Source: Polystyrenella longa (GTDB lineage Bacteria; Planctomycetota; Planctomycetia; Planctomycetales; Planctomycetaceae). From it: a stretch of 64,000 bases of DNA. The DNA is taken from contig NZ_CP036281.1 of assembly GCF_007750395.1 (NCBI RefSeq), forward strand, positions 347,211 through 411,210, read 5' to 3'. The notes below the pieces were generated by a model. The model saw only the letters and a list, made by a program, of their open reading frames with translations. It was not told where the DNA came from and searched no databases. A program made the translations under genes and the position numbers. Shown piece by piece: positions 22,482-44,156 of the stretch. Position 1 is the stretch's first letter, and the number at the start of each line of letters is the position of its first letter.

Positions 22482-22527
22482 CGTAAAAAAGACAAAGAGA
22501 GGCAGCACTCGGCTGCCTCTCTTTTTT
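22482..22527 (-). terminator. Rho-independent terminator, bidirectional
   Basis: A perfect 12-bp stem (22495-22506 with 22512-22523) with a 5-nt loop. The stem is GC-rich near the loop. T-runs exist on both sides: on the minus strand after the stem (A-run 22486-22491 on the plus strand) and TTTT on the plus strand. It lies just downstream of the gene at 22564 and upstream of queC on the minus strand. Confidence 0.8.
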
Positions 22528-25118: not shown

Positions 25119-25137
25119 GTCGGTTCGTTATTTTATT

Positions 25138-25164
25138 GAACCACAAAGTCACCAAGGCACGAAG
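25138..25164 (+). repeat. Dispersed AACCACAAA-type repeat (copy R1)
   Basis: GAACCACAAAGTCACCAAGG followed by CACGAAG; one of about ten related copies in intergenic DNA (see findings). It sits 19 bp after the argH stop. Confidence 0.55.
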
Positions 25165-25404
25165 ATAAAGAAGGGTGGTCCAGTCAATCTCGCAGAGTGG
25201 TCTGGATCGCGTAGCGACACTAAGCGGTATCGTATCATTCGAATGAAGACGCTTCCTCAAACGATTTACGCATGAGACAATGCTCAGTGTGTCTGGCCCA
25301 CCCGCGTAGTTAAGGTGTTCACTCTCTGATTTCACTGTTAGTTGTTCAAGTTAATCTCCCTTTCTCATGGTCACTCTTCTCACTGACTGAAACTTCTTCC
25401 CCCC

Positions 25405-36226: not shown

Positions 36227-37273
36227 TTACCACTGAGCACCCAGCATGATGCAGTTGAGGCCGCTACCAATGCCGAGCATGGCGACATTGTCGCCCGGTT
36301 TGATTTCACCCTTTTCGGATGCGATTGCGGCCGCCATCGGAAGTGCGGCGGCACCGGTGTTCCCAAGCCATTCCACGGTGGGGTAGTCGAGTCCTTCGGG
36401 AAGACCGAGTCGTTCCATCATCAGCTTGCGATGAGCGCGACCGACCTGATGCGTGACTGCCCGGTCGACGTCAGCGTTGGTCCATTCGAGAATTGGTTTC
36501 GTCTCTTCCCATGTCTTCGCGGCGAGTTCGACGCCGGCGTGCAGCAGGGCTTCCGAATCGGTATTCATACGGGGACGGGCGTCGCCGTGCAGATTTTGTT
36601 CGACTCCACCTTCGCAGAGAGCATGGCTGTCGGTATCGGCCAGAACGCGACCTCCCAGCAAACGGCGCCCAGTGGTGCTGTGGCGTTCGTGACAGAGGGC
36701 AATCGCGGCGGAACCGGAACCAATCGTGAGTGAAGCGAATGCAGGTTTGATGGATTGTCGGGTCAGGCTGTCGTCATGTAGGAGTGAATCGATCGTTCCT
36801 TCGACGAGGTTCCGACCTGTTTCAGTTCCCACGACAATGCCGGCTTCAATTCGTCCCAGTTCGATCAAGTCGGCGATGATGATCATCCCGTTTAATAAAC
36901 CGAGGCAGGCGTTACTGATATCAAACACATACCCCGATTGCGGCAGACCGGCGGCGTGATGTACTTTGCAGGCGGTTGCCGGTTCCATTTGATCGCGACA
37001 GACGGATCCATGCACGAGTGCTCCGAACAGGTTGCGATCGAGACCGGAGTCTTCAACCGCTTTCTGCGCGGTAAGCGAACTGATTGTGCCGGGAAGCGTG
37101 CCGGGATCGTAGAACCGACGCTCTTTGATGCCCGACATTAATTCGAGACGGCCAGTGGGCAAGTGGAGACGGTCATATACAGGAGCGAGTTGCTCCTCAA
37201 TCTCTTCCGACGTGACAATGTGCGGTGGTAGCGTATAGCTCAGCGCTTCAATACAGACATGTTGATAACGCAT
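36227..37273 (-). CDS. Beta-ketoacyl-ACP synthase III-like (KAS III/FabH superfamily)
   Basis: The 348-residue thiolase-fold enzyme has the Cys-His-Asn triad of KAS III: Cys123 in FDISNACLGLLNG, His275 in THQVGRAH and Asn305 in WLGNTGAAALP. It should condense an acyl thioester with malonyl-ACP or another nucleophile. FabH sets off fatty-acid synthesis in type II systems, but this protein is not next to other fab genes, and similar enzymes make other acyl products. The start at ATG 37273 fits the family; the frame extends to 37414. A role in secondary or membrane lipid synthesis is inference. Confidence 0.82.
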   Translation of the reverse strand: MRYQHVCIEALSYTLPPHIVTSEEIEEQLAPVYDRLHLPTGRLELMSGIKERRFYDPGTLPGTISSLTAQKAVEDSGLDRNLFGALVHGSVCRDQMEPATACKVHHAAGLPQSGYVFDISNACLGLLNGMIIIADLIELGRIEAGIVVGTETGRNLVEGTIDSLLHDDSLTRQSIKPAFASLTIGSGSAAIALCHERHSTTGRRLLGGRVLADTDSHALCEGGVEQNLHGDARPRMNTDSEALLHAGVELAAKTWEETKPILEWTNADVDRAVTHQVGRAHRKLMMERLGLPEGLDYPTVEWLGNTGAAALPMAAAIASEKGEIKPGDNVAMLGIGSGLNCIMLGAQW

Positions 37274-37653
37274 TAAGCTGACGCTGTCTTCTTTAATGTC
37301 GCGGAAAAGGAGGGGTCGCCGAGCCTTGTTCAATGTTAATTGATACGTCGAGGTGACACAACACATCGAGCAGATTCGGAAATGCCGGTCAAGCGTCGAA
37401 AAAGATGTCATCACGTCCGCTAACCAAGGGAGAAATCCCTCAGGGCGTACGCGACAGCATCGAGTGGTATCGCACGGCTAGACTAGCTAGCCGTGGCACC
37501 CATCCGTAAATTCGACATTCCTACTGAGTATTCAATTTATACCGAGTACACAGCAGGCATTCTGAAGACCCATCCATCCATGCAGAATGAATGCTCTCCA
37601 GGCCGTTGAATTGTCTCCCGCTCAAAGAGAAGGGGAGTATTTTCAATGGTCTG
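37274..37653. other. Intergenic region, 380 bp, with a palindromic repeat
   Basis: It holds copy P1 of a palindromic repeat family at 37473-37501. The rest shows no gene and no clear promoter. Confidence 0.45.
37473..37501 (+). repeat. Palindromic REP-like element (copy P1)
   Basis: CACGGCTAG (37473-37481), loop ACTAG, CTAGCCGTG (37487-37495), then tail GCACCC. Perfect 9-bp arms. Related copies P2 and P3 lie at 43257-43285 and 43397-43425. Confidence 0.7.
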
Positions 37654-37863
37654 CTAGACTTTGGCGGCTTCGCCACTGGGAATCGCTTTCTCGAGCTGAT
37701 CTTTCAGCCGAGTTAGCTCTGCCAGTTTGGCGGTGCGTTCATTGACGACGATCTCTGTTGGTTCGGCCGGTTCCATCATATAGGAACTACGGACGTAACG
37801 CAGACCGCGCATCAGGACATCGAGTTGTGGTTTGGTGAGGTCAATCGAAAGACTTTCGCTCAT
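37654..37863 (-). CDS. Small hypothetical protein
   Basis: The 69-residue product is mostly helical and charged (MSESLSIDLTKPQLDVLMRG, then RTAKLAELTRLKDQLEKAI). No membrane segment or known domain. AGGAG stands 11 nt upstream of the ATG. It resembles other lineage-restricted small proteins in style only. Function unknown. Confidence 0.6.
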   Translation of the reverse strand: MSESLSIDLTKPQLDVLMRGLRYVRSSYMMEPAEPTEIVVNERTAKLAELTRLKDQLEKAIPSGEAAKV

Positions 37864-38253
37864 GGAAACTGTTGCTCCTGCGGGAAGAAAATATCGTACC
37901 AGATCCCTACCCAGTCGATCATCATGATCTCATAGCCTGGAGCCGATGTAGAGGGAGAATTCAGTCTTCCCGAACGGCATAATGGGGATCAAAAGCGGAA
38001 CACGTCCATTGCGTTGCCATAATCCATTACGAAACAGCAAAGACATCATATAAAGAGGAAAGAGGGTTCTCAACTAGAGAAACCGTACCCTCCCCACAAT
38101 ATTTGGATTATCTTTCTTCAGATCGGACCAATCGGCCCTGCTTCTTTCAGATTGTTTTGAGCTCACTTAAAACCGCAATAATTGCCGAACTCGCGTTCAA
38201 TATACAGAATGGGACAGTCGACAAAACGCGAAAATAACAGTGTCTGATCAGTC
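37864..38253. other. Intergenic region, 390 bp
   Basis: No gene is supported. An imperfect hairpin pairs GAGGG-TTCTC (38062-38071) with GAGAA and CCCTC (38077-38081, 38088-38092) with an internal bulge. No repeat of the families described here was found. Confidence 0.35.
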
Positions 38254-39243
38254 TTAAAGTGACGTCCAGCCCTCATCTCTGCTTGACTTTCGAATTGCTT
38301 CGATCACCCGCATATTGGCGACAGCATCTGTGATGGGGGTCGGGACCGTTTTTTCTTCCAGAATTGCCTGAGAGAACAAGTCCCCCTGAATGGTGTACTG
38401 GTCACAAACCTGAATCTCGGTCTGGTGGAGATTCTCTTCTGTTTCCAACCAGATCTTACAAGGCTCGTCCGGAGGGGCGTTGAAGGGAATTTCGATTTCG
38501 ATTCTTCCTTCGGTTCCGAATATGTTAACCCTTTGGTAGGGAAAGAGTTGCGTGGAACACGTGAAGGTCGCTGTTCCTCTGCCGAATTCCATAACGACCG
38601 ATGCGAGCCGGTCGACTTGGAAATCAGGGTCGTTCTCGACCAGTCCGAAAACGCGATTCGGCTCTGCGTCGAAGAGGAATCGGGAGAGAGAAATCGGATA
38701 ACAACCGATGTCCATCAATCCGCCACCACCGGCCCCGGCCTGGTTCCGGATGTCGTCAGGATTGTTGTTAAAATAGGAGAAGTTGGTCTGGACCGTCCGG
38801 AGTTCGCCGATTTTTCCTTCCTCGACCCAGGTTTTGGCCTGCTTCCACTGGGGATGATGCCGGTACATGAAGGCTTCCATCAGTTTGAGATGGGGGGATC
38901 GGGCACCCGCGTCAACCAGTTGCTGCCCCTCTTCAGACGTCAAACCGATCGGTTTTTCGCACAGCACATGTTTTCCAGCGTCTAACGCCTTGATTGACCA
39001 CTCGACATGCAGGTGGTTGGGCAGCGGATTGTAGATGGCGTCGATATCGGGATCGTCGAGGAGCTCTTCGTAAGAACCGTACGCCTTCGGAATTCCGAGG
39101 TCGGTTGCCGCGTATTTTGCTGTTTCCAGATTTCGAGAGGCGATAGCCGCAATCTCACAGAATTCCCCCTGCTGCATGGCGGGAATGACTTTGACTGTCC
39201 CAATTTTTGCGGTACTGAGAATTCCCCAACGAACCTTGTTCAT
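38254..39243 (-). CDS. Gfo/Idh/MocA family oxidoreductase
   Basis: The 329-residue product has an N-terminal Rossmann NAD(P)-binding domain (MNKVRWGILSTAKIGTV, with the variant loop STAKIG), the family motif EKPIGLT (Lys of the catalytic EKP), and a C-terminal alpha/beta substrate domain. Members oxidise or reduce sugars, inositols and related polyols. The gene is flanked by long non-coding stretches, so it is probably monocistronic. Substrate unknown. Confidence 0.92.
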   Translation of the reverse strand: MNKVRWGILSTAKIGTVKVIPAMQQGEFCEIAAIASRNLETAKYAATDLGIPKAYGSYEELLDDPDIDAIYNPLPNHLHVEWSIKALDAGKHVLCEKPIGLTSEEGQQLVDAGARSPHLKLMEAFMYRHHPQWKQAKTWVEEGKIGELRTVQTNFSYFNNNPDDIRNQAGAGGGGLMDIGCYPISLSRFLFDAEPNRVFGLVENDPDFQVDRLASVVMEFGRGTATFTCSTQLFPYQRVNIFGTEGRIEIEIPFNAPPDEPCKIWLETEENLHQTEIQVCDQYTIQGDLFSQAILEEKTVPTPITDAVANMRVIEAIRKSSRDEGWTSL

Positions 39244-39500
39244 GTTTTTCGATCTATACTGGTGGAGTGGAGGGGTGCAGGCGATGAAACTGCGTCAAGT
39301 ATACGCAGACTAGGCTTGTGGATGCAAAACCCCGCATCCGAAGTCCTCTTTCCTTTTACGGATTCCCCCCATACATCCCTGATGTTCTGGCTAGGGCGTT
39401 TACCGAAGTCGGATCTGGTCGACCGTCCGAAGGGATGCTAAGATGCGTCGGTTACAGACCTATTCAATGATTCCCTCCCGCATTCCTCGGGCGATTCGAT

Positions 39501-40100
39501 ATGATTTTTGTTCTCGATAATTACGACTCTTTTACTTACAACCTGGTGCAGCGGTTCGGCGAAATCGATCCGTCGCTCGATATTCATGTTGCACGGAACG
39601 ATCAGGTTTCCATCGCCGAGATCGAGGCTCTGCAACCGGAACGCATTTTGATTTCGCCCGGCCCCTGTACCCCGTCCGAAGCAGGTCTCTCTAAAGAGGT
39701 GATCGCCCATTTCGGCCCGAAGGTCCCGGTGCTGGGGGTCTGTCTTGGACACCAGAGCATGGCCGAAGTCTACGGAGCGAAAGTGGTCCGCCACACCCGG
39801 TTGATGCACGGCAAAGTTTCCGAGATTGAACACGACGGTGAGGGGGTCTTCGCCGGGCTGGATAATCCTTTCACGGCGACGCGTTACCACAGCTTGATTG
39901 TCCCCGAAGAGAGTCTTCCCCCCGAGCTCATACCCACCGCCTGGACGCGCGAGCCTGGATTCGAGCCTGAACTTATGGGGCTGAGGCACCGCGATTATTC
40001 TGTCCATGGGGTTCAATTCCACCCCGAGAGCTTTCTCAGTGTGGCGGGCGTTCAATTGTTGAAGAACTTTTTGAACTTGTCCTCCCCGGTAACTGTCTGA
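39501..40100 (+). CDS. Glutamine amidotransferase component II (TrpG/PabA type)
   Basis: The 199-residue class I amidotransferase has the nucleophile Cys in VLGVCLGHQSMAE and the His-Glu pair in GVQFHPESFLS; PGPCTPSEAG forms the oxyanion region. It delivers ammonia to anthranilate synthase (TrpE) or aminodeoxychorismate synthase (PabB). Neither partner is adjacent, so I cannot choose; many bacteria use one amphibolic subunit for both. It is a single gene divergent from the oxidoreductase. Confidence 0.92.
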   Translation: MIFVLDNYDSFTYNLVQRFGEIDPSLDIHVARNDQVSIAEIEALQPERILISPGPCTPSEAGLSKEVIAHFGPKVPVLGVCLGHQSMAEVYGAKVVRHTRLMHGKVSEIEHDGEGVFAGLDNPFTATRYHSLIVPEESLPPELIPTAWTREPGFEPELMGLRHRDYSVHGVQFHPESFLSVAGVQLLKNFLNLSSPVTV

Positions 40101-40252
40101 ACCTGATTTGCGTTTCGGTCTGAATCGTTTTAGAGTGGTCTACCTTCTACACACTCTTCCGGGCTGATTCAGGTCACTGTGGATGTTCATTCTGGGATTT
40201 CCGTCCTGGCACGACCTGCGTGAGTTCCCCTCTCGCTGCAACGGTTCCCGCC

Positions 40253-42043
40253 ATGTCTACAACTGATACGCCTGCTCTCGCTTCTTCTAATACGCCTTCG
40301 TCCTCACGCCTTACCTTCGGACAGATGCTGGCTCTACTCATTGCCTGCACGGTGGTGATTGGTGCCGGATGGGGAATTCGAGGTGCCTTTGGGCACTCGC
40401 GGGGGGCGATGATGCCTGGGGCGATGCTGGGGGCAACGCTCGTCGTTTGTGCGATGCGGCCAGACTGGTGGCGACGCGCGGCGATCATCATGTTCGCTTG
40501 CTCCATCGGGTGGGGTGTCGGCGGACAATCGAGCTATGGAATCATCATCGGTTATTCGATGGGAGGCACCCTGCGTAACAGTCTGTTTGGATATGCATCG
40601 CTCTGGTTGGTAGGCGGTTTATACAGTGGCATCGGCGCTGGTTTTCTGGCGTTGGCCTTAACCAAATCACGGTCGTGGCTCCAACAGTTCATCTGGCCGC
40701 TCACCATTATGTATCTGGCGTGGCTGTCGCTCTCTTATCTCAGCATGCTGGAACCCCTCTTTGAATCGCTACTGGGGCAGGGCGAAGCAACTGTGAATGC
40801 CTGGTGGCATCATCTCGATTTCTTCGTACAGAGTATTGAATACTACGAAGGGGGCGAAGAAGCTCGCGGTTTGACCTACTGGCTGCACGATACCATCTGG
40901 GCCTGCGTGTTGCTCACAATTGTCGTCAACGGGCTGCTTTGGATTGTCGTACCGCGCTGGCGAAATGCCAACGCTTTGATTCTTCTGTTGGCGGTCGGTT
41001 GGTTTGCCGGTATGTATATATTGATAGAATTACTCAGTTTAAGAATGAACCCGCACCGCGCCGAAACCTGGGCGGGTGTGCTGGGGATGCAGGTCGCTTT
41101 GGTCGGGTATTTCATTTCTCAACGCCACTGGGTGGGGTTCATGCTCGCCAGTTATGGTTTTATTGCCGGGGCAATCGGGTTCAGTGTTGGTGACTTTATC
41201 CAGATGACCGGTAATGCGAAATGGGGGCCGATTGGCGAATACGCCTGGCTGCAGGAGTTCGGGTACTGGACCGTGATGGAGCAACTCTTCGGTTGCTTCA
41301 TGGGCTTTGGAACGGCCGTCGGATTGATCCGCCTTGTTAATAAAGGACTGGCACCACCCGAGGAAGATACCGCGAGTAAATCAATTGATCTCTTTGGTCT
41401 CTTTTTTGTTTTCGGTCCGTTACTGGTCTTCAATTTCCGGAAACCATTTCGAACTTGGATGGAGCACGATTCGATCAGCGATGTTCTGTTTACGTTCCCT
41501 ATTAATAACGTCGCGTTCTTCTTTTCCTTTGTTTACCTGCTCGTGCTGTTATGCATGTTGAGTAAAATGCGAAAGCGAGAGTTGGCACTTGTGCCCGCCA
41601 GCCATTTGGGGCAGGCTCAGCTGTTGGCGTTCCTGGTTAACATTGCCGTCTTGATGATGTATCTGTTGATCGCCCAGGTCTCCGCGTCGAGCCTGTTTAC
41701 ATTCGTCTCGGCCATCATCATAGGGTTGTTAATCATCTTCTCTAAAACAGAGAAACCGGTCGACATCTCAAACGCGAACATTCCTGCGGAATCATTCACC
41801 TGGTTCCCTGGATTGCTGCACTGGATCCTCTGGCCCCTTTCGGCTTTTCTGCTGGTCGGACTGGCGTGGACTACGATGCAGTTTGAAATGAAACAGAAAC
41901 AGTATCGGTTTGAAAGCGATGTTCCCACTCCCGAAGAAGAGCAGGTGGTGGAGCCTCCTCCCACGACATCCCTGTTCCCGTCGATACAGTTACCGGAGTT
42001 CGTCCGGCGGGATTATTCTTTAATGAATGACCACCGCAGCTAA
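40253..42043 (+). CDS. Polytopic membrane protein, unknown (many Gly/Ala/Trp-rich helices)
   Basis: The 596-residue product starts at ATG 40253, or GTG 40220 with 11 more residues. It has a short Thr/Ser/Pro-rich N-terminus and then about 13-15 membrane segments, several with Gly-rich motifs (GWGIRGAFGHSRGAMMPGAM, GWGVGGQSSYGIIIGYSMGG) repeated in the first half. The C-terminus has a Pro/Glu-rich tail. The glycine motifs in helices look like packing or channel elements, but no transporter family was recognised. It is convergent with the zinc-ribbon gene, only 7 bp between stops. Function unknown. Confidence 0.75.
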   Translation: MSTTDTPALASSNTPSSSRLTFGQMLALLIACTVVIGAGWGIRGAFGHSRGAMMPGAMLGATLVVCAMRPDWWRRAAIIMFACSIGWGVGGQSSYGIIIGYSMGGTLRNSLFGYASLWLVGGLYSGIGAGFLALALTKSRSWLQQFIWPLTIMYLAWLSLSYLSMLEPLFESLLGQGEATVNAWWHHLDFFVQSIEYYEGGEEARGLTYWLHDTIWACVLLTIVVNGLLWIVVPRWRNANALILLLAVGWFAGMYILIELLSLRMNPHRAETWAGVLGMQVALVGYFISQRHWVGFMLASYGFIAGAIGFSVGDFIQMTGNAKWGPIGEYAWLQEFGYWTVMEQLFGCFMGFGTAVGLIRLVNKGLAPPEEDTASKSIDLFGLFFVFGPLLVFNFRKPFRTWMEHDSISDVLFTFPINNVAFFFSFVYLLVLLCMLSKMRKRELALVPASHLGQAQLLAFLVNIAVLMMYLLIAQVSASSLFTFVSAIIIGLLIIFSKTEKPVDISNANIPAESFTWFPGLLHWILWPLSAFLLVGLAWTTMQFEMKQKQYRFESDVPTPEEEQVVEPPPTTSLFPSIQLPEFVRRDYSLMNDHRS

Positions 42044-42050
42044 ATCGGCT

Positions 42051-42692
42051 TTACAGCATTTCCACCGTCGTGGAATTGGTGTGAGTGAATCGCAACGCCG
42101 CTTCGATACGAGTATGAAAGTCGTGTCGGTCGCCGAGGACGCGGAAATGGACTGTTCGTGTACCGTGTCGGTAGAGGGTCCAGTTCCGTTTGCGATTGCG
42201 GAACTGCTGGATGCTCGTATGCTCGATAAAAAGAACACCCGGATGTTGCATTAACAGTCTGGCCAGTAACTGAGGCGCGTGCGGGTCAAGGTCGGGGGGG
42301 GGCAACAGCGATTCGTTCCAGTTGTTTTCGTGAAAACGATGAGCAAGCCAGTCGATGAGCGCCGCCTGGGGCATCATCGATTTGACGGTCGACCACCAGT
42401 GGCCCGTTGTTGATTGGGGTTTCCAGCATGTCGCTTCATCGACCACGTCTCGCGTTTCCTGGGGAAGAAAGAGTAGCCCCTTCGTGGCGGAGTACAAATG
42501 GCCGGTTTGCGGTAACTCATTGCGAAGCATCTGCACCGACCCCAGGCGATCATCGAGAAATCCCATTCGTTCGGTCAGGACTTCGAGCGACGGGTCCGCG
42601 TCGGAGATGTCGACCCCCTCTGCGCAGAGGGCGCACCGGTACTGCACCGGTTCAACCCATCCCAGACAATGTCGACACAATACAAACGTCAT
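42051..42692 (-). CDS. Hypothetical protein with N-terminal zinc ribbon
   Basis: The 213-residue product begins with a CxxC-x10-CxxC pattern (LCRHCLGWVEPVQYRCALC), a typical zinc ribbon, then an unrecognised alpha/beta region (about 30-200) rich in Trp and His, with a basic stretch FRNRKRNW. The zinc ribbon suggests nucleic-acid or protein binding (inference). It is convergent with the membrane protein at 40253. Start may be ATG 42692 or 42701. Confidence 0.6.
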   Translation of the reverse strand: MTFVLCRHCLGWVEPVQYRCALCAEGVDISDADPSLEVLTERMGFLDDRLGSVQMLRNELPQTGHLYSATKGLLFLPQETRDVVDEATCWKPQSTTGHWWSTVKSMMPQAALIDWLAHRFHENNWNESLLPPPDLDPHAPQLLARLLMQHPGVLFIEHTSIQQFRNRKRNWTLYRHGTRTVHFRVLGDRHDFHTRIEAALRFTHTNSTTVEML

Positions 42693-42924
42693 CGCTTGCA
42701 ACCCGGAAACAGTTCATCGCAACAGGACGGAGGGTATACAAATCGTAAGCCCTCCTTACAATGGGAAGGATACACTTCCCGCTGAAAACATCATACCCGG
42801 TTCCCGACGGATCGCCATCATCCAATCGGCGAGAAACATCCATTTTGGAAACTAGAAACAGTGCAACGGAGCCGATTCCCGCAGGGGCGGATCGTCCGAA
42901 TCCATTCACAGAAGGAGCCTGCCC

Positions 42925-43113
42925 ATGGCGCCCAAATTAAATAAAAAGCAGAAGAAGCAGATCGACGCCCTACGGACCAAAATCCAGAAAGCACAGGTGT
43001 TGCTGACCGCAGCCAAAAAACAACCCGACGACCCCAGCGACATCACTCGTCTGCAGAAAGAGATCGACGATCACAAACAACAGATCGAAACGATCCAGTC
43101 CACCCCCGGTTGA
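42925..43113 (+). CDS. Small coiled-coil protein
   Basis: The 62-residue product is Lys/Gln/Asp-rich and helical (MAPKLNKKQKKQIDALRTKI..., DITRLQKEIDDHKQQIE), with a heptad-like pattern. AAGGAG lies 7 nt before the ATG, one of the best Shine-Dalgarno sequences in the window, which supports translation. No family was recognised. It probably binds another protein or nucleic acid through its basic N-terminus (inference). Confidence 0.65.
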   Translation: MAPKLNKKQKKQIDALRTKIQKAQVLLTAAKKQPDDPSDITRLQKEIDDHKQQIETIQSTPG

Positions 43114-43191
43114 ACCCCGTCTCGGGCAAGCACTCAATATTACCTACTCAACGTCATCCGCTTAACGCACCCGCATCATCCGCATTGCATC

Positions 43192-43262
43192 TTAGCCAAT
43201 AGGTGATAGCAAAGGGGTGTTAGCTCATGGGTGTTAGCCAATTGATTTTAGCCAGTGGGTGC
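43192..43262 (+). repeat. Degenerate tandem repeat, about five 14-15-bp units
   Basis: Units begin with TTAGC or TAGC and end with GGGTG in the better copies (for example TAGCTCATGGGTGT at 43221-43234). The last unit runs directly into palindrome P2. Confidence 0.5.
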
Positions 43263-43285
43263 CCCGGCTAGCTCGTCTAGCCGGG
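43257..43285 (-). repeat. Palindromic REP-like element (copy P2, inverse)
   Basis: On the minus strand: CCCGGCTAG, loop ACGAG, CTAGCCGGG, then GCACCC. Arms at 43263-43271 and 43277-43285 on the plus strand are perfect over 9 bp. Confidence 0.7.
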
Positions 43286-43396
43286 CGGTTTCAAGTCCGG
43301 GTCACAATTGCTGGTCTTAGACTCCATTGTGGAGCAGAATTTGAACAGTCCAGGATTACCCATTGAACATCTATTGATGATTGAACACCCAATGGC

Positions 43397-43425
43397 ACGG
43401 TTAGTCGAGCTAACCGTGGCACCCC
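43397..43425 (+). repeat. Palindromic REP-like element (copy P3)
   Basis: CACGGTTAG (43397-43405), loop TCGAG, CTAACCGTG (43411-43419), tail GCACCC. Compared with P1, the C-to-T change in the left arm is matched by G-to-A in the right arm. Confidence 0.7.
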
Positions 43426-43498
43426 AGACTTGGCGACCGGTTATTTATCGGTAGACAGAACACCACTCTTAACTCAAACTGATGACGCTGCCTGACTC

Positions 43499-43969
43499 AT
43501 GCCTGTATCTCCCCCTCCACCGACCATTTTCATTGTGCATCCGAAAGAGAAGCGGAGCAAATGTTCGATTGAACCTTTGCGTGGTCGCGACGAATTCCGT
43601 TTCTGGAAATTCCCTCAACGTGGTTTGGAGTCGCTGGACAACTACGTCCGCTTGGGCATAGGTGGTCCAATCTTAAGCGAGGCCGATGCGGGGCAGGGCC
43701 TGTTGATTCTGGATGGCACCTGGCGTCTCGCCGAAAAGATGGAAGCGGATTACCAGCACCTTCCCGTCCGCAGTTTGGCTCCCACCTGGCAAACAGCCTA
43801 TCCGCGAAAATCGAAAATCTTCGAAGACCCCAGCACCGGCCTCGCCACCATCGAAGCCCTCTACGCCGCGAACATCCACCTGGGAAGACCGATCGAAGGC
43901 TTACTGGACGAGTATCATTGGGGGGAGGAGTTCGTGGCGATGAATCGGACGTTGATTGCAGGCGGGTAG
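43499..43969 (+). CDS. DTW/Tsr3-like (SPOUT-related) protein
   Basis: The 156-residue product has [11 protein letters not shown] near residues 71-81, followed by [20 protein letters not shown] and [14 protein letters not shown]. This order (D-G/C-x-W, then a Pro/Tyr-Arg segment, then an S-T-x-E-A helix) is that of DTW/TSR3 aminocarboxypropyltransferases, which add the 3-amino-3-carboxypropyl group of SAM to uridine in tRNA or rRNA. If correct it is an RNA modification enzyme. It lacks the N-terminal Cys cluster of some family members. Assignment is from motif spacing by eye and should be read as moderate. Confidence 0.6.
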
Positions 43970-43974
43970 ATATG

Positions 43975-44156
43975 TTGAACCACAAAGGCTCGAAGACACG
44001 AAGAGCTGGACAACTAACAAAACGACCTCCGATCACCGAGGCTTAATGAAAGCCAATCCTCTTTTGGATTCCAAGATCATTTGCTGCAGGAAACGTTTAT
44101 GAACTTTCCATCATGGAAGCAATTGTTCGTGTTCCCTTGGTGTCTTCGTGTTTCAA
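43975..44156. repeat. MITE-like inverted-repeat element (copies R8 and R9)
   Basis: A 182-bp intergenic segment bounded by TTGAACCACAAAGGCTCGAA... (43975-44003) and, inverse, TTGAAACACGAAGACACCAA (44137-44156 read on minus). The ends match the dispersed AACCAC family. No gene lies inside. Confidence 0.5.

Follow-up and report, generated by a model that had tools for sequence, protein, structure and literature searches.

Hairpins in the window

The DNA analysed here (the window) is a stretch of 64,000 nucleotides from the planctomycete Polystyrenella longa (contig NZ_CP036281.1, positions 347,211 to 411,210 of the forward strand). It carries three intergenic hairpins, P1, P2 and P3, which resemble repetitive extragenic palindromic (REP) sequences and which are probably the ends of a small mobile element. 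P1 lies between two open reading frames (ORFs) of the minus strand (37654-37863 and 36227-37414), and P2 and P3 lie together between two ORFs of the plus strand (42925-43113, of 62 aa, and 43499-43969). Each hairpin has a perfect stem of 9 bp and a loop of 5 nt, with the sequence GCACCC, or GGGTGC on the other strand, attached at one side (Table 1).

Hairpins of this geometry occur four times in the window, three of them tailed and the fourth (22498-22520) without GCACCC. In 100 dinucleotide shuffles of the window their mean number was 0.22 and the maximum 2, and a tailed hairpin never arose, which argues that P1-P3 are real and beyond chance. An earlier reading made from the letters of the window (the sequence-only reading) had described the same arms, loop and tail, had considered a chance origin unlikely, and had pointed out that a T in the left arm of P3 is offset by an A in the right arm. 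Our analysis agrees on all of these points, including the compensated change, save that P3 lies one base further left, at 43396-43424 and not at 43397-43425. The further expectation that copies would often lie at convergent 3' ends does not hold for those in the window, given the orientations of the ORFs above.

Table 1. Coordinates in the window of the hairpins and of the element that P2 and P3 delimit (R1, covariance model described in the text)
Feature	Position	Strand	Description	R1 score (bits)
P1, single C-type end	37473-37501	+	Hairpin 37473-37495, tail GCACCC to 37501	50.2
P2, GGCTAG-type C end	43257-43285	-	Head GGGTGC 43257-43262, hairpin 43263-43285	50.5
P3, GGTTAG-type T end	43396-43424	+	Hairpin 43396-43418, tail GCACCC 43419-43424	52.3
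168-bp REP doublet (REPIN/BIME)	43257-43424		GGGTGC-hairpin, linker of about 110 nt, hairpin-GCACCC; P2 and P3 are its two ends	
Inner part of T end	43358-43395	+	ACCCATTG...CAATGG; possible second, weaker 6-bp stem beside the P3 hairpin	

The doublet and its copies in the genome

When the P2/P3 locus and two other loci of the same genome (L007 and L013) were compared by blastn, identities among the three were 71-73% over 173-179 bp, the similar stretch being bounded by GGGTGC on one side and by GCACCC on the other, exactly or to within a few bases. P2 and P3 are thus the two ends of one 168-bp element. Eleven such doublets measured in the genome are 167-179 bp long: nine fall within 167-171 bp, and the other two, which are tandem copies, reach 179 bp. 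Their ends are mainly of two types, usually one of each per doublet: T ends, with stems GGTTAG or GGTTTG and an inner flank ...CAACGG, CAATGG and variants of these, and C ends, mostly with the stem GGCTAG and an inner flank that is mostly ...TCG. P1 is a C-type end for which R1 recognised no partner.

The pattern GGYTAGN5CTARCC is found at 19 places in the 6,125,480-base genome, many of them in pairs about 130-145 bp apart, compared with 6 for the backwards control. The covariance model R1 was built from 43 ends (35 of them distinct) from this genome and from Planctomycetaceae bacterium HKST-UBA56. In that alignment 98.1% of the cells are paired and both sides have changed in four of the nine pairs; the covariation score of 0.226 was reached in none of 500 shuffles, with a maximum of 0.063 for slid structures, while 14 of the 500 shuffles attained as many both-side pairs and 124 as many pair types. 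An R1 scan of the genome at E up to 0.1, in which 150 of 1344 first-look candidates were scored, returned 37 matches at 36 places, the palindrome 732641-732675 matching on both strands. Pairing of these matches by hand gave 12 doublets with their GGGTGC heads outside, one wider head-outside pair around a transposase gene described below, and single ends such as P1. Where doublets adjoin, neighbouring ends also form two head-inside pairs, with distances of 123 bp (5949321/5949444) and 134 bp (3679156/3679290); we take these to be the gaps that separate units. At L010 (3679009-3679468) two doublets stand in tandem with a period of 281 bp, linker and flank being alike.

An ORF of at least 100 aa overlaps 5 of the 30 R1 matches checked (of 37, some in overlapping loci), as against 748 of 947 control positions. 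Two of the five (L036 and L054) belong to a single ORF of 419 aa whose true start is probably further downstream, at the signal-peptide-like MTYLRS, a third (L062) reflects an over-long reading of the start of a transposase gene, and the remaining two are L037 and L056. The ORFs beside the doublets differ from copy to copy. Target duplications of at least 2 bases were found at 1 of 21 elements, with 2.0 expected from shuffling, and a preferred target site was considered and dropped, the bases outside the element ends being only mildly T/A-rich. In the GTDB set the exact stem of these elements with its tail occurs in one named genome, HKST-UBA56, on 12 contigs, with the proviso that the set may omit the host genome.

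There may also be a second stem of 6 bp directly inside the main hairpin of T-type ends. In 30 such ends 84.4% of its cells are paired, and its covariation of 0.256 exceeds that of the shuffled alignments (0.172, with 0 of 500 reaching the observed value); since the number of both-side pairs was matched in 173 of the 500 shuffles, we treat this stem as suggestive only.

The block from 36.2 to 44.0 kb of the window is collinear in two congeners, G001 and G002, whose alignable parts are 69-82% identical to it at the nucleotide level, and R1 gave no match at E up to 1 in the syntenic stretches of either. At the P2/P3 site the flanking ORFs are 385 bases apart in the window and a few tens of bases apart in both congeners. 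At P1 the aligned blocks are separated by 377 bp in the window and 232 bp in G001, and, in the alignment with G002, by 366 and 227 bp, respectively; the window gap is longer by 145 and 139 bp, roughly the length of one element. To judge from these alignments, the copies in the window are apparently recent insertions, or else were lost in both congeners.

A degenerate tandem repeat of 14 bp (TTAGCCAATGGGTG; 43192-43261, plus strand, five copies, 69% match) abuts P2 and belongs to the context outside the element; it, too, is missing at the syntenic sites of both congeners, and GGGTGTTAGCCAAT has one exact and one single-mismatch place in the genome. The window also contains a 30-nt repeat, TTGAACCACAAAG..CACGAAGA, at 25136-25165 and 43975-44004 (87% identity), the second copy directly following the ORF 43499-43969.

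Transposase genes of the host and its relatives

The host genome has four Y1_Tnp matches, none of which lies in the window. Two are ORFs for REP-associated tyrosine transposases (RAYTs). The first, P0001, is a 194-aa ORF (L016:1086-1670, at 5.95 Mb) situated between doublets of the same stem types as in the window. The second (L034:1441-2034, at 1213276, i.e. 1.21 Mb) is 59% identical to P0001 and is enclosed by hairpins with the stem CACTGCTGG, one with a GTGTGC head starting 46 bp before the ATG and one followed by GCACCC starting 5 bp after the stop codon. The NCBIfam model for REP-associated tyrosine transposases (NF047646, REP_Tyr_transpos) scores the two at 98.5 and 89.9 bits (cut-off 80), and the IS200 model NF033573 at 28.8 and 23.2 bits, below its cut-off of 55. 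The predicted proteins combine an HUH motif, a putative catalytic tyrosine with NP, and a RAYT profile score above the cut-off. In a search of the PDB at E up to 0.01, the sole match to P0001 was Escherichia coli TnpA-REP (4er8; E 1e-6 for the whole protein), in an alignment that covers the HUH and tyrosine motifs and sets PEHVH opposite PEHMH and NYIHENPVKRG opposite DYIYINPVKHG. The 1.21-Mb RAYT has a counterpart in G002, 69% identical and beside a similar upstream ORF, and hence looks inherited in place. A further Y1 transposase match, L032 (G000:C1:185250-185729), is 31% identical to P0001, has one internal stop, and lies about 2.3 kb from the doublet at 182900.

The sequence-only reading had likened the hairpins to REP elements and had seen no RAYT in the window, correctly so, as the RAYT ORFs lie outside it. 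It had proposed a covariance-model scan for many intergenic copies and a genome search for RAYT genes, and both the copies and the two hairpin-edged RAYT ORFs are present. What changes is the unit, which is an inverted doublet and not a single REP palindrome, and the head, which is GTGC and not GT[AG]G.

Relatives of P0001 occur in 36 of 59 neighbourhood genomes and mostly carry EHVH and YIHxNP motifs. R1 matches were found in 11 of the 59; a hand count gives a P0001-like RAYT in 9 of these 11 and in 27 of the 48 others, a weak association, perhaps due to the narrowness of R1. We therefore turned to the stems cognate to each RAYT. From the matches listed, 50 RAYT loci were examined (L034, 30 initial loci and 19 further; L118 was omitted, being the same gene as L105), in three of which (L071, L110 and L123) the contig ends within the scanned flanks. 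A frame consisted of a perfect stem of at least 7 bp with foot GTGx at most 260 bp upstream and one with tail xCAC at most 420 bp downstream, and was matched if the first seven stem bases of both hairpins were equal, one difference being allowed. A matched inverted frame surrounds the RAYT at 19 of the 50 loci, as against 1 of 134 control windows slid along the same loci.

The stems around the framed genes are CACTGCT, CACTGGC, CACTGCC, CACTGTC, CGGGGGC, CACGGCT or CACGGTT, CATGGCC and CACAGGT, and their similarity follows that of the RAYT proteins (Mantel r 0.51, with 0 of 5000 permutations as high); the arm is shared in 8 of 10 RAYT pairs of at least 60% identity compared with 17 of 161 other pairs. 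G015 contains 29 copies of its cognate stem together with the GTGC foot, and the 58 other genomes none, while the stem CACTGCTGG is present in 9 of the 59 genomes, showing that stems are not always private to one species. Seventeen of the 19 feet are GTGC and two are GTGG, the GTG itself having been demanded by the criterion. To judge from these genomes, the association of RAYT and REP appears to be both general and specific across relatives. As a cause of the GTGC head we also considered the position that follows the conserved W, which is L in P0001, L034, L066 and L104 and mostly Q elsewhere; since L068 and others combine Q with GTGC, the idea was dropped.

Two further observations concern relatives. 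In G039 a distant RAYT (L091) is surrounded by at least eight hairpins of the type CCCAGATTG or CCCAGGTTG; their foot is GTGG, and several are spaced at about 61 bp. In G040, which belongs to a different family within the class, R1 matched 34 times, and several of the matches, on C4 and C10, form doublets whose ends start only 46-47 bp apart, with a much shorter linker.

Discussion

We consider P1-P3 to be ends of a miniature mobile element of the kind known as REPINs (REP doublets forming hairpins) or bacterial interspersed mosaic elements (BIMEs), probably moved in trans by a RAYT, and put the probability of this at about 0.88. The unit consists of two REP hairpins in inverted orientation, their heads (GGGTGC, with GTGC as the foot) on the outside and a linker of about 110 nt between them, and in this reading it is non-autonomous. 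Its most likely mover would be the RAYT encoded on the same chromosome at 5.95 Mb, predicted to be an HUH single-strand endonuclease of the TnpA-REP kind, which would bind the folded hairpin together with its head on single-stranded DNA; its tyrosine would then cut beside the hairpin, and the doublet would be rejoined elsewhere, mostly in intergenic DNA. By analogy with characterized RAYTs, such cutting and transfer via single-stranded DNA may be anticipated, and neighbouring genes may conceivably be affected. The lack of target duplication fits, as is expected of this kind of enzyme. So far as sequence can tell, the elements appear to share the features of REPs and REPINs, except for the head.

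Several observations weigh against this view. By the criteria used, 31 of the 50 RAYT loci have no matched frame, above all the more distant ones, such that 15 of 28 RAYTs at 43% or higher identity to P0001 are framed and 4 of 22 below that level. No tight pair encloses the P0001 gene, whose frame spans two complete doublets, and no single stretch of the P0001 alignment with 4er8 is above threshold by itself. Two draft genomes (G014 and G018) have R1 matches and no P0001-like RAYT at E 1e-10. The GTGC head differs from the motif that E. coli TnpA-REP requires. The congener alignments are not base-exact, with flanking bases beyond the element also missing, and presence in one species with absence in two could mean loss instead of insertion. 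Finally, movement of the doublets is inferred, excision and insertion having gone unobserved.

The alternative that survives best, though we regard it as unlikely, is that a RAYT with its two hairpins forms an autonomous cassette similar to IS200/IS605, of which the short doublets are deletion products. The matched pairs around 19 RAYTs, laid out like the doublets, are consistent with this, as are two RAYTs of G015 that are 59% identical and framed by the same stem. Pairs of RAYTs within single genomes (91% for L120/L123 and 80% for L072/L105 in G005, 84% for L076/L109 in G026, and 77% for L107/L108 in G040) also fit and imply that RAYT genes do duplicate. However, no near-identical copies were found among the loci compared, where the closest within-genome pair is that of 91% in G005 and the host's own pair stands at 59%; the 1.21-Mb RAYT seems to have been inherited in place, and the IS200 model falls short of its cut-off for both host RAYTs.

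It is highly unlikely that the hairpins are instead a structured RNA or regulatory element (a terminator, mRNA stabilizer or riboregulator) that is not mobile and has been retained because it influences the genes nearby. The conserved pairing and intergenic location would suit such a role, but the neighbouring ORFs vary among copies, the orthologous sites in the two congeners are empty, and the stem follows the RAYT. A terminator or known RNA was dropped as an explanation on two results: the sole Rfam match in 37200-43700 is sub-threshold and far from P1-P3 (40836-40965), and none of the seven terminator-like sites in that interval, a number in no excess over the 7.5 in shuffles, corresponds to them. 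A secondary, exapted regulatory role would be compatible with a mobile element. Least probable of all is a miniature inverted-repeat transposable element of a DDE-type insertion sequence, i.e. a deleted transposon moved by a cut-and-paste transposase and having 29-bp ends that are palindromic by accident; this would account for an element that is discrete, short inside and inverted at its ends, but we dropped it on the lack of target duplication. Moreover, the ends are palindromes in their own right and show compensated changes, a property that DDE transposition does not require of an end, and those genes that were found within a frame of such ends are of the Y1/RAYT type (no search for DDE genes was made).

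Beyond the single element, we tentatively suggest, at somewhat less than even odds, that planctomycetes hold a separate branch of REP/RAYT systems with a GTGC head, in which cutting would take place at GC or GA instead of CT or CA, and each RAYT and its doublets would form a matched set whose stem has changed many times. In the portions of the published work drawn on here and below, E. coli TnpA-REP is described as requiring GTAG and as acting at CT on REP in single-stranded form while leaving inverted REP uncut; another RAYT cuts at CT and CA, and for one RAYT the cut site is reported to be set through cross-complementarity with the head (PMC8266576). With the Marinomonas enzyme, replacing the head by GTAC shifted cutting to GA or GT and a GTGG head permitted it at CC, while similar changes failed for the E. 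coli and Stenotrophomonas enzymes (PMC8266576). Applied to a GTGC head, the guide rule predicts cutting at GC or GA, which is a prediction and not a result.

If the suggestion is correct, these genomes would provide a natural series of enzyme-hairpin pairs in which RAYT genes are framed like the short doublets. RAYTs that form a graded series, with a stem particular to each, could reveal which residues read the stem and which the head, and the GTGC family could tell whether the guide rule for cut-site choice survives a natural change of the head. The experimental REP/RAYT work that we found concerns gammaproteobacteria, whereas the present family is planctomycete with a non-canonical head, and it offers clear cases of sites that carry the element in one species and lack it in two close relatives.

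Comparison with known systems

In gammaproteobacteria, RAYT genes are reported to be flanked by two inverted REPs (Nunvar 2010, PMC2817692), and REPINs are regarded as REP doublets mobilized in trans (Bertels & Rainey 2011, PMC3116915). As far as these accounts go, the likeness with P. longa is close: short headed palindromes, inverted doublets in intergenic DNA, and a low-copy HUH/tyrosine RAYT between two inverted REPs, with stems that follow the RAYT (PMC2817692, PMC3116915). The planctomycete elements differ in having the head GTGC (GGGTGC) and not GT[AG]G, in copies that number tens and not hundreds, in the planctomycete RAYT, in a somewhat longer linker, and in the possible second stem at one end.

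The survey of the GTAG and CGTC superfamilies (Di Nocera 2013, PMC3733652) describes, in the sections used here, similar short stem-loops tagged at one end, with head-outside dimers the commonest in most families; GTAG heads are degenerate at positions 2 and 3, with GTGG in O. terrae, and Rhodopirellula baltica, which hosts several REP families, is named with the PVC (Planctomycetes-Verrucomicrobia-Chlamydiae) group among hosts of GTAG repeats. The tag in P. longa is neither GTAG nor CGTC, since position 4 is C, and, unlike the CGTC repeats, which that text gives as without an associated transposase, the GTGC repeats have a RAYT (PMC3733652).

The TnpA-Y1 class 3 proteins are likewise HUH/Y1 enzymes flanked by atypical hairpins and found mainly in Planctomycetes, Acidobacteria and Proteobacteria, but they are characterized, in the part of the study consulted, by Y----Q and a CnGA foot (Quentin 2018, PMC6006769), in contrast with Y---NP (YIHxNP in P0001) and the GTGC foot seen here. 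By motif, the RAYTs of this work would fall with TnpA-Y1 class 2. IS200/IS605 elements such as IS608 also employ a Y1 HUH enzyme and hairpins with a 5' guide tetranucleotide (PMC8266576, PMC6006769); unlike theirs, the ends studied here are inverted copies of one hairpin, and the proteins match the RAYT model while staying below the cut-off of the IS200 model. In the open-licence literature our search for planctomycete REP/RAYT work turned up only the 2013 and 2018 studies just cited (PMC3733652, PMC6006769). With no closer planctomycete system found there, and with the features that sequence can assess, other than the head, in common, the P. longa elements and their RAYTs are best viewed as a variant of the REP/RAYT kind.

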